This document shows positions 1,949 to 18,159 of a stretch of DNA of 30,092 bases, piece after piece. The stretch is taken from positions 1 through 30,092 of the IMG/VR virus record IMGVR_UViG_3300008261_000100; one strand, 5' to 3'. The notes beneath the pieces were generated by a model. The model was not told where the DNA came from, did no database searches, and saw only the letters and a list, made by a program, of their open reading frames with translations. The stretch is from a virus. A program made the position numbers and the translations under genes. Within the stretch, counting starts at the first letter, position 1. Each line of letters begins with the position of its first letter.

Positions 1949-2332
1949 TTAGTGAATATAATAATTGAAGTAATAATTAACCTTCCCCATATAAGGTCCG
2001 TCTTCAACCTCGGCTAATATAAAAAATCTAATCTTATATAAATCAGAATCGACCATCTTTTTTAATACCGCACGATACAATTTAATTGATTCATACGCAC
2101 CATTCAAATAAGATTCACCAAATTGTGTTGTCTTAATCTGTAAATCATATGGTAATGAATATCTATCAGTCTTAACTGTTGCGTGAATCCCCATTTTTTT
2201 GAAAACCTCAATCATATCTTTCTCAATCTTCTTCTCAAGATTAATCATTGCGTCCTCATACTTTTCAGGTGTCCTATCATCATCCATAAAGAACAATAAT
2301 TGGTTCTTCATATCAGGTATATTTCTTTTCAT
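1949..2332 (-). CDS. Hypothetical phage protein, 127 aa
   Basis: This soluble alpha/beta-looking protein has a charged helical N-terminal half (YEDAMINLEKKIEKDMIEVFKK) and a C-terminal part with alternating hydrophobic strands (YKIRFFILAEVEDG). Its ATG overlaps the stop of the Sir2 gene, so the two are translationally coupled. No motif gives a function; the coupling suggests that it is made in proportion to the Sir2 protein. Confidence 0.7.
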   Translation of the reverse strand: MKRNIPDMKNQLLFFMDDDRTPEKYEDAMINLEKKIEKDMIEVFKKMGIHATVKTDRYSLPYDLQIKTTQFGESYLNGAYESIKLYRAVLKKMVDSDLYKIRFFILAEVEDGPYMGKVNYYFNYYIH

Positions 2333-3042
2333 AACAATTCATTTAAAATTAATTCAACACCTTCAGTCGCAGGTTTCTCAATGTAATTTACATTTTTACC
2401 ATACTTGTCTAAATATCTACTAGGTTGGGGGTCAATGTAATAAATCTTACACTCATCACTAACACTTGATAATAGATTTAATGTATAACCAATCATCAAA
2501 CTAGTTCCAATTATGATTAACACATCCGATTCAGTTATGGATTCATAACTTTCCTCAACGTTGAATGGCATCTCTTCAAACCAAACAATATGGGGTCTTA
2601 ACTGTGACCCTGTTATCTCACACTTATCCCCAATGTTAATATCATTATAACCAATCTCCACAATATTATCCAATGGACTTGTCTTATGACTATACATCGC
2701 ACCTCTGGCTTTAGTCAACTCACCGTGTAAATGTAATATCTTAGATGAACCAGCTCTTTCGTGTAGGTCATCAACATTTTGGGTAACGATTGTTACGTCA
2801 TATTTCTCTTCTAACTTAACCAAACCTGTGTGGGCTGAGTTAGGTTCAACCGTAGGTAATTGTCTTCGTCTATCGTTATAAAAATTCAAAACCTTCTCAC
2901 GGTCTTTCTTCCATCCTGACGGTGTACAAACATCATCAATACTATGATTCTCCCATAACCCATCCACACTATCTCTAAATGTCAAGACACCACTTTCTCT
3001 TGAAACACCAGCACCTGTGAATACAACAATTTTCTTTTTCAT
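2329..3042 (-). CDS. Sir2-family NAD-dependent protein deacylase
   Basis: Sirtuins remove acyl groups from lysine using NAD+. The Rossmann-type NAD site is seen as GAGVSRESG (residues 10-18) followed by TFRD, then TQNVDDLHERAG (87-98), the catalytic histidine in HLHGE (104-108, H106) and a late IGTSLMIGY. The Y55-x-x-R58 pair matches the class III (SIRT5/CobB) desuccinylase/demalonylase signature. The usual four zinc cysteines are missing: between the catalytic His and the IVWFEEMP segment only one Cys is present, so the zinc ribbon appears lost. At 237 residues it is of CobB length. Location is predicted to be cytoplasmic. It might modify host proteins or affect NAD-based defence; that part is inference. 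Confidence 0.9.
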   Translation of the reverse strand: MKKKIVVFTGAGVSRESGVLTFRDSVDGLWENHSIDDVCTPSGWKKDREKVLNFYNDRRRQLPTVEPNSAHTGLVKLEEKYDVTIVTQNVDDLHERAGSSKILHLHGELTKARGAMYSHKTSPLDNIVEIGYNDINIGDKCEITGSQLRPHIVWFEEMPFNVEESYESITESDVLIIIGTSLMIGYTLNLLSSVSDECKIYYIDPQPSRYLDKYGKNVNYIEKPATEGVELILNELL

Positions 3043-4416: not shown

Positions 4417-4893
4417 TTAGTCTATAAAATAAACGATTTTTTTTCCTATTTTAACTGAACGATAATGTTCTAACGATTCTTTGATAACGGTCTCACCGTC
4501 TTTAGTTACGATAACACGTCTTGTTTTGAATTTATCGTTGAATAATTGTTTTGGATGTTTGATTGATGTGTTAATCTTTAACTCTAACTTGTTAGTCTTC
4601 ATTGTTACCCAAAGTTGGTAATCAAACCCCATTGAATAATCACTAACTAATAAACCACATCTTCTTTCACAAGTATCTAATACCACCAATCCTTGTGTCA
4701 CTATAATCTCAATGATATCTCTCATTGATTCTAATATTTCTTCTTTGGGAACTCTACCGAATGTTGTGTTATCCATTACCGCAACATCAGATTCACGAGT
4801 GCTGGTTACATCAACAACAAGACCGTTGACAACAAATCTGTCAAATAACCTACTCTCAGTAATTAATGTCGATAATAATTTTAATAACTTCAT
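4417..4893 (-). CDS. Hypothetical protein with N-terminal LITE tag, 158 aa
   Basis: The N-terminus MKLLKLLSTLITESRLFDRF contains L-I-T-E-S at residues 10-14, the same short peptide found at the start of six other proteins of this window. The remainder (from about residue 20) is mixed alpha/beta with no recognised motif and looks unrelated to the other tagged proteins. The ATG overlaps the stop of the next tagged gene upstream (ATTTAAATTATG context), so the pair is one transcription unit. If the tag is a packaging signal, this would be a head-internal protein. Confidence 0.75.
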   Translation of the reverse strand: MKLLKLLSTLITESRLFDRFVVNGLVVDVTSTRESDVAVMDNTTFGRVPKEEILESMRDIIEIIVTQGLVVLDTCERRCGLLVSDYSMGFDYQLWVTMKTNKLELKINTSIKHPKQLFNDKFKTRRVIVTKDGETVIKESLEHYRSVKIGKKIVYFID

Positions 4894-5360
4894 AATTTAA
4901 ATGCCCCCCAAAGTTGCCCAAATATTTTACTTAAAAACCTAGTATCTAATCTATTTAAAGGTATGTCACCATAATCGTAAGTTTCGTCAAACATTTCACC
5001 TTCCTCATCATATTCCCACACTTCATAATGTGCAACATCAGTACTAATAGACATTATTCTAGATTCATACTGAAAATCTCTACCAGCATCTTCATTATAA
5101 TCACTCCAAGATTGATATAAGATATCTTCCCAATAGTCGTGAAGATAAATATTTGTTTCATTATCTCTTTTATAATTAACCTCAACACATTCATTTAAGA
5201 AATTAATAACACGTTCTCTATTTATTGAACCTTCAGAATAAAAATAATCAGGGTATATTTTATCAAAATTTTTATACCCACCAATATTTCTAATGGTTTT
5301 AAATACACCGTATTTTTCAATTAATGCGTCTAACTTATTCTCAGTTAATATAATTTTCAT
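4890..5360 (-). CDS. Hypothetical protein with N-terminal ILTE tag, 156 aa
   Basis: The open frame runs up to 5543, but the first 61 codons read through the terminator hairpin and the ncRNA repeat, so the true start is ATG 5360-5358 (MKIILTENKLDALIEKYG). L-T-E at residues 5-7 matches the shared tag. The body is acidic and tyrosine-rich with no recognised fold. An ATATTTATT element (5364-5373) ends only 4 nt before the ATG, which would give an almost leaderless transcript if it is a promoter. Confidence 0.78.
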   Translation of the reverse strand: MKIILTENKLDALIEKYGVFKTIRNIGGYKNFDKIYPDYFYSEGSINRERVINFLNECVEVNYKRDNETNIYLHDYWEDILYQSWSDYNEDAGRDFQYESRIMSISTDVAHYEVWEYDEEGEMFDETYDYGDIPLNRLDTRFLSKIFGQLWGAFKL

Positions 5361-5373: not shown

Positions 5374-5385
5374 AGATAAAATAAA

Positions 5386-5411
5386 AAACCCCCAAGGTTA
5401 CTTGGGGGTTT
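5386..5411 (-). terminator. Intrinsic terminator of the ncRNA unit
   Basis: There is a perfect 11-bp stem (AAACCCCCAAG / CTTGGGGGTTT) with a GTTA loop. On the minus strand it is followed by TTTTTTATTTTA. It ends transcription coming from the structured RNA upstream and separates it from the tagged gene at 4890-5360. Confidence 0.85.
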
Positions 5412-5444
5412 AAATTTCATCCTTTGGATTGAGGTGTTTAACCC

Positions 5445-5501
5445 GAACCGCCTCACCCGATTCTTAGTGGTCAGATTGTGAACTAGGAGTTCTGACATCC
5501 T
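5445..5501 (-). repeat. ncRNA repeat unit, promoter-distal copy
   Basis: This copy holds H1 (5470-5475 with 5491-5496) and H2 (5445-5450 with 5458-5463, including one G-U pair). The H1 stem and much of its loop (CTCCTA) are identical to the other copy, while the H2 stem has changed with pairing kept. Confidence 0.8.
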
Positions 5502-5536
5502 GATGGTTTCACTTATTAAGTTGGGGTAATCAACCC

Positions 5537-5593
5537 GTATCATCTCACCTGATACTTAATGGTCAGATTGTAAGTTAGGAGTTCTGACATCCT
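5537..5593 (-). repeat. ncRNA repeat unit, promoter-proximal copy
   Basis: This copy holds H1 (5562-5567 with 5583-5588) and H2 (5537-5542 with 5550-5555). The segment matching the second copy includes GGTCAGATTG and GTTCTGACATCCT on the plus strand, offset by 92 nt. Confidence 0.8.
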
Positions 5594-5612
5594 GTGTGAC
5601 ACTCACACACTA

Positions 5613-5642
5613 CAAATATAACTATCTTTTGGATATGCACAA
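5613..5642 (-). promoter_or_regulatory. Bacteroidota-type promoter of the ncRNA
   Basis: The minus strand reads TTG (5642-5640), a 19-nt spacer, then TATATTTG (5620-5613), matching the Bacteroidota housekeeping consensus TTG / TAnnTTTG. Transcription should start near 5607, at the foot of the 5' hairpin of the ncRNA. Confidence 0.75.
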
Positions 5643-6897: not shown

Positions 6898-7446
6898 TTA
6901 TCCATCAATTACTGAGAATGATTCAACATTAATTGGTACACCCGTATATCGTGTTATCAAATCAAAAAATTGACCATTAATATCTGAAACAAAAGTATCT
7001 TTTACTTCCCAACCTTCAGTCATATCCAACTCCGAATACCAATCATATAATGTAGTATCAATATAATCGTAATCTCCATTATCATCATTCCATACAGGAG
7101 CACCATTAACATCACCATAACAATCTATAAACACAGGTAAATAACCATCATATGGGTTAATCTCACTACCTACATCATAGATTGAATAATAAAACTCACC
7201 CTCAAATTGTGCGTCATTTATTTTAATCCTATCAGGTAATTCTTTTAACATTTTTTTAGCAACCTCAGTAGCACCGTCTCTACCACCAAGGTAATCAAAT
7301 AAGTAATCCAACAAAGTGTCTTCATCACTTTTAAATAATTTATACAGTCTACTACTTACATAAGGTTGTTGACCTTTACTTTTCTGATTATCAAAATATC
7401 TGAATATCGCATCTTTTAAATTAGATTCCGTAATTATAACTTTCAT
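6898..7446 (-). CDS. Hypothetical protein with N-terminal IITE tag, 182 aa
   Basis: The N-terminus MKVIITESNLKDAIFRYF carries I-T-E-S at residues 5-8, nearly identical to the starts of the genes at 17026 and 4890. The body is acidic, rich in Asp and Tyr (YDGYLPVFIDCYGD, NDDNGDYDYID), and not similar to the other tagged proteins as far as I can see by eye. An ATATTTATT element ends 4 nt before the ATG. It is a candidate head-packaged protein by analogy with the T4 internal proteins; function otherwise unknown. Confidence 0.78.
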   Translation of the reverse strand: MKVIITESNLKDAIFRYFDNQKSKGQQPYVSSRLYKLFKSDEDTLLDYLFDYLGGRDGATEVAKKMLKELPDRIKINDAQFEGEFYYSIYDVGSEINPYDGYLPVFIDCYGDVNGAPVWNDDNGDYDYIDTTLYDWYSELDMTEGWEVKDTFVSDINGQFFDLITRYTGVPINVESFSVIDG

Positions 7447-14610: not shown

Positions 14611-14642
14611 CAAATATAATACAACTTCAAACATCCACCAAA
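14611..14642 (-). promoter_or_regulatory. Bacteroidota-type promoter of the 14593-to-11834 gene run
   Basis: The minus strand shows TTTG (14642-14639), a 20-nt spacer and TATATTTG (14618-14611), then a short leader to ATG 14593. It sits directly behind the terminator of the 555-aa gene. Confidence 0.7.
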
Positions 14643-14646
14643 TAAA

Positions 14647-14672
14647 AAACCCCCAATTTTACCTGGGGGTTT
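14647..14672 (-). terminator. Intrinsic terminator of the 555-aa gene
   Basis: The stem AAACCCCCA / TGGGGGTTT has an 8-nt loop and on the minus strand is followed by TTTTTTATTT. It lies 4 nt past the stop codon at 14676. Confidence 0.85.
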
Positions 14673-14675
14673 AAA

Positions 14676-16343
14676 TTATTTTACATTATATTCACTTCTT
14701 ACATCGTAGAGATAATCGGATAACATTTCATTATAGTTATTTTTATCAACACTTGGATACCATCTATCATCAGGGTCCCACTTTGGTTTTTCAATTTCAC
14801 CTTCAGATACAAGTTCCTTAAAAGTACATTCAATTTCATCATCACATCGTTCAAAATAGTCATCAAGATAATCAGGATTAACATCGTCAAAATATCGTTC
14901 AGTGTCTAAGTGTAAGATAACACCCTCATCATTCATTTTCTCAATTGTCCCATATTCTTGTAACGCATCTTTTAATAATCCATATAAATAATTAGAGTAA
15001 TCATCCGCTTCAGCGTTACTTTGAGCATTACCTAACGCACTTTGTATACTATGATTATCATCATATTTTTCAATAATATCCTCAATATCCATTTCGTCAA
15101 AATCTTCAGCAATGAATTCATCATCATCACGTTCAGCAACTTTTCTTAAAATTTCTCTAATTTCTTGCTCATTCTTATCATCTACGTAATAGTTAAGACA
15201 ATCTCTCCAATCCGTATAGTCATTATAATATAAATCCCAGGTTTCTCCCGCTAATATTAATTCAAACATTGTAACTTCAACAGTTCTTTCATATTCATTA
15301 CCCGCAGGTGTTGTAACCTTTTTCTTATATCTTCTATAAACGTAATCACCATCAACATATCTTCCAACATCATCAGGGTCTATATTAAGTGTTATATTAT
15401 AGTTAACATTAGGAGCATCAATTATACCCATATCGGCCAATTTTCTCATCATCGCTCTACCTTCAAACAATTCAGGTCTATTTTGATATAAGTCTCTGAT
15501 AACTTCATCAGGTAAATCACTTAATTTGAAATCTTGGTCTGAAGCGTATTCACTACCAAACCCTCTAATTAGATAATCATCTTCTTCTCCTTCACCACCT
15601 AAAACATAAAACAATGGTAAAATTAAATTATGATATTCTTCTTTTGGTTTATAGTTTTTAGGTCCTTTTAATTGATACATAATACCATCAGTACCAATAG
15701 CCGCAGTTAAATGACTTTTATTTATTTTAAATTTATCATTGATTGGTCTTGTTTCTCTTAATGAATAGATATATCCATATCTTGAGCGTCCACAGTGCCC
15801 CATTCTTTCTTTTTCTTCTTCCGAATCCATAGTATTTAAATCAGCCCAATAAAACCCATTACCATTTTCATCACGGAAGTCTTTAATTATATCATTTTTC
15901 TCAACATAATTAATATCACCGTTACCTACCCCTAATGAATCGTGCCATTCTTTTGACTTTTTAACTAATTCATCTAATTCTAAGTTTTTAAATGGTTTTA
16001 CATTACCATTTAAACCAACACGTACCCAATCCATAATACCAACAATTGATTGACGGTATCTGTTGACATAACTTTTATTATTAATCACATTTATGATGGT
16101 TTTATTAATTTCCTCACCTTCACCCGAATCTCTAAAATTGACATCCTTTAAATATTTTTTAATACGACCTAACATCCAAACTGCAAGACTCCCACATAAT
16201 TCATCAAGTAATTCCGCTTGGTCTTGGTCTAAACCTTCTTTGTCTGTTAATATTTTTAATTTCGAAGCTTCAAGTAGTAAGTCATCTTGAATACCCATCA
16301 TAGATTGCATCTTACTAATTTGTTCGGCTAATATATTTCTCAT
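14676..16343 (-). CDS. Large acidic protein with N-terminal ILAE tag, 555 aa
   Basis: The longest complete gene of the window. The N-terminus MRNILAEQISKMQSMMGIQ has L-A-E at residues 5-7, close to the F-I-A-E cleavage site of T4 internal-protein leaders; a second LLLEA follows near residue 24. A central stretch (about 180-200) reads ERMGHCGRSRYGYIYSLRE, recalling the HC..SLR pattern of PcfJ-like domains, followed by INKSHLTAAIG and YQLKGPKN. The C-terminal 200 residues are extremely acidic and Tyr-rich. I recall related proteins only from uncultured phages. No enzymatic role can be assigned. It is monocistronic: AATATTTATT element upstream, terminator downstream. A head-packaged protein is the best guess. 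Confidence 0.8.
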   Translation of the reverse strand: MRNILAEQISKMQSMMGIQDDLLLEASKLKILTDKEGLDQDQAELLDELCGSLAVWMLGRIKKYLKDVNFRDSGEGEEINKTIINVINNKSYVNRYRQSIVGIMDWVRVGLNGNVKPFKNLELDELVKKSKEWHDSLGVGNGDINYVEKNDIIKDFRDENGNGFYWADLNTMDSEEEKERMGHCGRSRYGYIYSLRETRPINDKFKINKSHLTAAIGTDGIMYQLKGPKNYKPKEEYHNLILPLFYVLGGEGEEDDYLIRGFGSEYASDQDFKLSDLPDEVIRDLYQNRPELFEGRAMMRKLADMGIIDAPNVNYNITLNIDPDDVGRYVDGDYVYRRYKKKVTTPAGNEYERTVEVTMFELILAGETWDLYYNDYTDWRDCLNYYVDDKNEQEIREILRKVAERDDDEFIAEDFDEMDIEDIIEKYDDNHSIQSALGNAQSNAEADDYSNYLYGLLKDALQEYGTIEKMNDEGVILHLDTERYFDDVNPDYLDDYFERCDDEIECTFKELVSEGEIEKPKWDPDDRWYPSVDKNNYNEMLSDYLYDVRSEYNVK

Positions 16344-17025: not shown

Positions 17026-18159
17026 TTATTTATCAAAATAACTACAAGCCAAACTTCTACTACCTTTCCATCCTTTATTCTTACCGAATTTGATACGAAA
17101 TGGCGGTATCGTAATGTTAAACCCACCTTTATATTTGGTCATTCTAACATCATAATCAACATTTCCTATTACAGTTGGTGGTGTTTTAACAGGAATAGGT
17201 TCAGGAGTTGGTTTATATGTGTTAAATACTAAATCAAGATTTACCTTAGCATATTTATACTGTTCATAATCAGGTCTTAATTTATCTTTTTCAGCTTTAG
17301 ATAATGATGAATTCCAAGTTGGTCCTGAAGTCCCAAGTAAATTACCTGTATTAGAACCGTTAGGATTTTGAGTAATAACAGTATTATCATCTATCCCCAC
17401 ATTTAATTGTTTTAATCTATCAATTATGTATTGTTTAGCCGCGTTATTTCTTTCAGTTGATAACTGAACGAATGTTATCCCCTTAGAATATTTTCCTGCA
17501 CCTGGACTACTTTTAGGAACCCCGTTAGGTAATGTCGAACAAGACGTATCAATACTTAAACTTTTTAAATACACATTAGTTCTGTCTTTCGCCTCAGGAA
17601 TTTGTTGGATGATTCTAGCAACATTAGTGTTAATTACACTAACAATGTCCGTTTCAACCATTTGTTTAAACACATCAGTTAAAATCCACTCATTATTAAC
17701 AAAGAAATCTGAGTTAGGTGGGACTGATGCCGGCAAACTAAATGACTCAGCAGGATATTTTTTACTATCATCAGTTTTTTCAGGTTCTGTAACCACTTCA
17801 CCTTTTTTAGTAATTCGAATACTAGTATAATCACCTTTAATAAACGCCTCTAATATACCAACTGCAAATCTTTTATCACTTGCTTTAATTTCACCCCAAT
17901 TGGTTATACTTTGTTTAGAACCATTTTTCTTAAAAATTGAGATTATTTCGTTTTCATTTTTAGTAATATACGCATCCCACTGATTTTCAGGTATTGTTAC
18001 AGTATATTTACCACCACTTTGACTAAACTCATTTTTTTTAAGTTGTCTATTACCAAAATGAAGTGTTTTTTTGCCCCAACCAATACTATTTGTCTGTTCT
18101 TTTAAACTTTCTAACAGAGCTTCATATTGAGATTCTGTTATAATAATCTTATTTTTCAT
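17026..18159 (-). CDS. Tagged protein with OmpA-like C-terminal domain, 377 aa
   Basis: The N-terminus MKNKIIITESQYEALLESLK is the clearest example of the shared tag (I-T-E at 7-9). The middle holds KYTVTIPENQWDAYITKNEN. From about residue 190 the sequence resembles an OmpA-type peptidoglycan-binding fold: LKSLSIDTSCST, a LSTERNNAAKQYIIDRLKQL helix region like the L..R...V...L of OmpA, NPNGSNTGNLLGTSGPT, and YAKVNLDLVF like the RRV.l.f strand. No signal peptide is present, so the protein is not exported in the ordinary way. Packaged or ejected virion protein is a plausible inference. AATATTTATT motif upstream. Confidence 0.75.
   Translation of the reverse strand: MKNKIIITESQYEALLESLKEQTNSIGWGKKTLHFGNRQLKKNEFSQSGGKYTVTIPENQWDAYITKNENEIISIFKKNGSKQSITNWGEIKASDKRFAVGILEAFIKGDYTSIRITKKGEVVTEPEKTDDSKKYPAESFSLPASVPPNSDFFVNNEWILTDVFKQMVETDIVSVINTNVARIIQQIPEAKDRTNVYLKSLSIDTSCSTLPNGVPKSSPGAGKYSKGITFVQLSTERNNAAKQYIIDRLKQLNVGIDDNTVITQNPNGSNTGNLLGTSGPTWNSSLSKAEKDKLRPDYEQYKYAKVNLDLVFNTYKPTPEPIPVKTPPTVIGNVDYDVRMTKYKGGFNITIPPFRIKFGKNKGWKGSRSLACSYFDK

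Follow-up and report, generated by a model that had tools for sequence, protein, structure and literature searches.

A two-unit RNA gene on the minus strand

The window analysed here, i.e., the whole 30,092-nt stretch of viral DNA (IMG/VR record IMGVR_UViG_3300008261_000100), carries in this order a Nudix gene, a small ORF, an RNA gene, and the genes of the MKIILTEN and MKLL proteins. The RNA gene, at 5642-5386 on the minus strand, was confirmed as complete, comprising a promoter, a 5' hairpin, two repeat units and a terminator; as read from the sequence, the RNA has a size of ~225 nt, with its own promoter and its own terminator. A previous description of this locus (hereafter, the sequence-only reading) had proposed a self-contained minus-strand ncRNA gene with tandem units and compensatory changes, all of which stand, whereas the form it gave to the first stem (H1) and a kissing contact do not, and several helices had been missed. 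The promoter TTG-N19-TATATTTG, the 5' hairpin and the 11-bp terminator that it had listed are all present on the minus strand, and the two repeat units, of 87 nt each, are spaced by exactly the 92 nt that it had given. The features are as follows:

5613-5642 (-): predicted Bacteroidetes-type promoter, TTG 5642-5640, N19 spacer, TATATTTG 5620-5613
5594-5608 (-): 5' hairpin GUGUGA-GUG-UCACAC, from the minimum-energy fold
5507-5593 (-): RNA unit 1, from a covariance model match of 109.1 bits (unit in the training set) and pair counts
5593-5590/5580-5577 (-): unit 1, pseudoknot stem S1, AGGA/UCCU
5588-5583/5567-5562 (-): unit 1, pseudoknot stem S2, GUCAGA/UCUGAC
5561-5558 (-): unit 1, CAUU
5555-5550/5542-5537 (-): unit 1, H2, with loop GGUG 5549-5546
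5536-5533/5527-5524 (-): unit 1, H3
5521-5518/5514-5511 (-): unit 1, H4, then GAAA
5415-5501 (-): RNA unit 2, layout as unit 1, from a covariance model match of 103.1 bits (unit in the training set) and pair counts
5501-5498/5488-5485 (-): unit 2, S1
5496-5491/5475-5470 (-): unit 2, S2
5469-5466 (-): unit 2, CACU
5463-5458/5450-5445 (-): unit 2, H2, with GGUG 5457-5454
5444-5441/5435-5432 (-): unit 2, H3
5429-5426/5422-5419 (-): unit 2, H4, then GAAA
5386-5411 (-): intrinsic terminator, from the fold, with an 11-bp stem, a UAAC loop and then a T-rich run
4417-4893 (-): MKLL gene (MKLLKLLSTLITES..., 158 aa), second gene downstream of the RNA and a possible protein partner

Following the published Bacteroidetes promoter consensus (PMC7366714), the window RNA is probably transcribed from a promoter of this type. 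In the window, the TTG-N19-TAnnTTTG pattern has a background of 0.05 per kb on each strand, and a TTG-like box, 18-20 nt and TAnnTTTG lie immediately upstream of the RNA in 17 of 21 loci of this RNA type (type 1); in four type 1 loci the RNA follows an ORF stop without a promoter of its own. The leader sequence, i.e., the 5' hairpin region, varies among relatives, and there is no room for it where the RNA abuts the ORF stop. The terminator segment (5379-5416) has a second, 92% identical copy at 14640-14677.

This RNA is real and appears to be new. As the sequence-only reading had anticipated, it is neither a tRNA (ARAGORN reported 0 genes, tRNA or tmRNA) nor a member of a known RNA family: no Rfam release 15 model reached its gathering threshold in the window, and the sub-threshold matches near the RNA were far under that score and mostly over the terminator. 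Related RNAs were likewise not found in the open-licence papers searched.

Fold of the unit and its comparative support

The folding energy of the minus strand (z = -1.66, with 13 of 200 shuffles equal or better) was less pronounced against its own shuffles than that of the plus strand (z = -2.81). Folding energy is by itself weak evidence, and therefore the comparison of relatives had to decide; this comparative evidence is decisive. Homologues with covarying stems, the check that the sequence-only reading had suggested, were recovered by pattern and covariance searches. Each unit is better read as an H-type pseudoknot followed by H2 (with its GGUG loop), H3, H4 and GAAA, where the pseudoknot consists of S1 (AGGA/UCCU), a 1-nt L1, S2 (GUCAGA/UCUGAC) and an A-rich L3 mostly ending in AYAA. 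In alignment A6, of 20 distinct units, 95.1% of the cells were paired, pseudoknot included, versus 32-46% when the strands were slid, with two-sided changes in 13 of 28 pairs (50 cells) and a covariation score of 0.349 versus 0.209 for shuffled alignments, exceeding all 500 shuffles; because A6 had been fitted to the nested helices of the covariance model, its counts lean towards the model structure. A plain MAFFT alignment (A1) gave 94.3% of cells paired versus 32-45% slid.

H2 is the strongest helix, with two-sided changes in all six pairs, followed by H4; the window itself displays the changed yet paired H2 stems described earlier, GUAUCA/UGAUAC and GAAUCG/CGGUUC around GGUGAGR. Since AGGA/UCCU is nearly invariant within type 1, support for S1 comes from outside the main type 1 set, namely GGGA/UCCC in the second unit of locus L030 and GGGU/ACCC in a second RNA type, where it appears with its flanks as UGGGU/ACCCA and AGGGU/ACCCU. 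S2 is replaced entirely, by GUUGGGU/ACCCAAC in L411, a relative from a bacterial genome bin, whose unguided predicted fold contains S2, H2, H3 and H4, and by CCGAG/CUCGG in type 2. The H1 of the sequence-only reading was sound as to GUCAGA/UCUGAC, present in both copies, and is better taken as one stem of the pseudoknot; S1 and the whole-stem replacement of S2 favour the pseudoknot over a plain hairpin. Not listed in that reading were S1, the hairpins H3 and H4, and the pairing of CRYY with GGUG, which is a possible one. CRYY pairs with the H2-loop GGUG in 100% of the cells, and equally in 100% with the 5' GG.UG (slide -2), which makes either a second pseudoknot or an extended H1 possible. The pair counts contain 54 G-U versus 1 A-C cells, which places the RNA on the minus strand, as had been proposed. 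The kissing contact GUGAG/CUUAC does pair in both window copies, but it is not kept by covariation in relatives: of the five pairs, two are broken in 8-10 of the 19 sequences, and 144 of 500 shuffles pair equally well.

Weak matches of the covariance model R1 led to loci of the second type in some type 1-bearing phages, and a model built from two such loci (R2) found six. Type 2, located in six of the same phages, has the layout of type 1 with a different sequence: a pseudoknot, H2, H3, a 7-bp H4, UGAAA and then a terminator-like hairpin, with an L3 ending in AYAA as in most of type 1. Its pair counts gave 96.7% paired versus 35-53% slid, with two-sided changes in seven pairs. The H3-H4 tail pattern alone matched only RNA loci, with one match in the reversed control. 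This second type, with its shared layout, is independent support for the structure.

A short peptide gene beginning ATG TCA GAA CTC CTA (MSELL...) in each unit was considered as well. Its frame is open over 11-28 codons in many members and the 57-nt tandem is in frame, but the ATG is missing from the L317, L328 and L340 types, which also carry a 1-nt deletion, a 1-nt insertion is present in L148, stop positions differ, and the variation tracks base pairing. The short ORF of the unit is not conserved, and a conserved ORF across homologues, which the sequence-only reading had named as counter-evidence, was not found, its ATG frame being lost or shifted in these members; we regard the peptide reading as very improbable.

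Distribution and gene neighbourhoods

Pattern scans of IMG/VR, two loose ones of which gave mostly unrelated matches among the matches listed, located one or two units in at least 27 other phage contigs of 10.3 to 304 kb. R1, built from 17 units (alignment A1), found the RNA in 28/28 records with one strong-scoring locus each, a count that is no measure of RNA frequency, the records having been picked for carrying the pattern; several are near-duplicates, corresponding to roughly 14 distinct forms. Units are single or in tandem, with duplication spacings of 57 or 92 nt; since many relatives carry only one, the second unit is dispensable.

Relatives of one window gene, with 37-41% identity, occur in the genomes of two uncultured phages, 634 and 642 kb in size. 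For all genomes above 634 kb in a study of huge phages, Bacteroidetes are the predicted hosts (PMC7162821), and judging by their size these two genomes probably belong to that set; the RNA carriers appear to be very large viruses with kinship to the megaphages that infect Bacteroidetes-type bacteria. R1 and R2 gave no convincing match on three megaphages of 634-642 kb, nor did BLAST against INPHARED phages. In samples of ~395 Bacteroidota genomes each for R1, R2 and R3, the only match was to genome bin G236, with R1; R3 would be expected to find G236, which was probably absent from its sample. This relative (L411/L404) is on a 3-kb contig of the bin (C244), where a radical SAM gene of the HxsC type lies upstream of it. 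Weak covariance model matches in G002, G004, G007 and one place of G015 look coding or unrelated.

Type 1 RNAs occur in at least four gene contexts, the commonest being a Dam-like methylase on the other strand, the RNA, MKLL, a small CxxC protein and a DnaJ-like protein (names assigned by eye). A cis-acting 5' leader or riboswitch-like attenuator governing the downstream gene would agree with a terminator preceding that gene and with the nearest called downstream ORF being on the same strand in all 21 type 1 loci listed. We nevertheless consider it unlikely: the downstream genes vary with context, no alternative antiterminator pairing between the units and the terminator was seen by eye, the four promoterless loci of type 1 come after the stop of an ORF, and type 2, of the same layout, sits in other neighbourhoods, three of its loci directly after a sigma-factor-like ORF (ORF end read by eye). 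An element that blocks exonucleases in a 3'-UTR or at a 5' end, leaving a stable RNA after mRNA decay, is similarly unlikely. A pseudoknot on the 5' side of every unit suits this idea, as does its start only a few nucleotides from the stop of an ORF in L034, L266 and L113/L128 (type 1) and in several type 2 loci; however, with a promoter right before the RNA in 17/21 type 1 loci an upstream mRNA is unneeded, and H2-H4 are conserved as well.

The MKLL family was found in 9 of the 18 records searched, adjoining the RNA in 9/9, and is absent from six RNA-bearing records, though these may be fragments. The MKLL protein had no Pfam or PADLOC match and no informative PHROG match. Its AlphaFold model (pLDDT 79) matched nothing in the PDB at E < 0.1, and no ToxN, among the best 50 matches listed, in which RelE appeared at low rank; among viral folds an unnamed protein gave the one match below 0.001, and there was a weak match to a site-specific RNA endonuclease of a phage (E 0.086, TM 0.48-0.54), which is only a lead from a predicted model.

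Regarding other genes of the window, MKIILTEN relatives lie upstream of the RNA at L377 and L381 (G007 and G011), and in the window downstream of it. Four minus-strand genes, at 4417-4893, 4890-5357, 6898-7446 and 17026-18159, begin with a brief hydrophobic run that ends in ITE or LTE (MKLLKLLSTLITES, MKIILTEN, MKVIITES and MKNKIIITES, respectively). Such starts resemble T4-type capsid targeting sequences, which are cleaved after LxE/IxE; a loose motif was counted in only 14/48 versus 7.9 expected. A Sir2-family protein is encoded at 2329-3042 (-).

Possible role and comparison with known systems

The occurrence of the same fold in several gene neighbourhoods points to a role in trans. Our preferred reading, tentative and drawn from sequence comparison, is a standalone phage small RNA that is most likely trans-acting and protein-binding, to which we assign a probability of roughly 0.4. 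The RNA would act as a compact scaffold binding a protein, with tandem units supplying more than one binding site; its likeliest role would be that of an antitoxin-like or decoy RNA occupying a protein of the host or the phage in the manner of type III antitoxins, or else that of a partner of the linked MKLL protein. Against multivalent binding, many members have a single unit, and against the MKLL partnership, the gene is missing in six RNA-carrying records. A more specific version, in which the RNA silences or guides MKLL as a RegB/RelE-like RNase, or soaks up a host defence protein, the two RNA types having different partners, is considerably less probable. A regulatory sRNA that base-pairs with host or phage mRNAs would fit the promoter, the terminator and a size typical of sRNAs, but the best-conserved stretches are in helices or knot loops and no long conserved single-stranded seed is evident; its probability is low, if marginally above that of the other alternatives.

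To our knowledge, megaphages have yielded few descriptions of functional RNAs besides tRNAs. A pseudoknotted family present across phage contigs of up to 304 kb, with a diverged second type, is evidently under selection; it offers a handle on the way in which megaphages deal with proteins of the host or the phage, and with the covariance models the RNA could be sought elsewhere.

Among known phage RNAs, Racr RNA anti-CRISPRs mimic the CRISPR repeat (PMC10651486). The RNA described here is likewise small, non-coding and phage-borne, and might bind a protein of the host, but its unit is a pseudoknot with three hairpins. The vrRNAs of VIPR, also phage-encoded, contain 9-16 YNNGG repeats and a tail in which a pseudoknot can occur (PMC13142463), whereas the longest YNNGG run in the present RNA is two, with a single such run.

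The type III antitoxins ToxI, AntiQ and CptI have H-type pseudoknot units in tandem and a terminator before the next gene. In the phage RNA the pseudoknot has comparative support and the terminator is the 11-bp stem at 5411-5386; the window has two units in tandem, and many relatives a single one. The antitoxin RNA CptI, which binds protein, combines an L1 of a single base with an A-rich L2 (PMC5086642), and a single-base L1 and an A-rich loop are also found in the phage RNA. The ToxI family differs in its repeats of 34-36 nt, versus phage units of 57 or 87 nt that have extra hairpins and are often single. A true type III toxin-antitoxin locus, with the RNA as antitoxin and MKLL as toxic RNase, would account for the order promoter, pseudoknot units, terminator and gene, for the constant adjacency of MKLL where it is found, and for the weak RNA endonuclease and low-ranking RelE fold matches. 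Nonetheless, no recognisable ToxN/CptN/TenpN-like toxin lies downstream of the RNA and no type III toxin was matched in Pfam, PHROGs or PADLOC, nor did the PDB fold comparison yield one among the 50 matches listed; the RNA also occurs without the MKLL gene, and often with one unit only. It does not qualify as a member, no such toxin having been found and some records with the RNA lacking the linked gene, and we judge this reading improbable, more so than the base-pairing, cis-acting and exonuclease-blocking ones. By analogy, type III antitoxins are the nearest thing that this phage RNA may work like.
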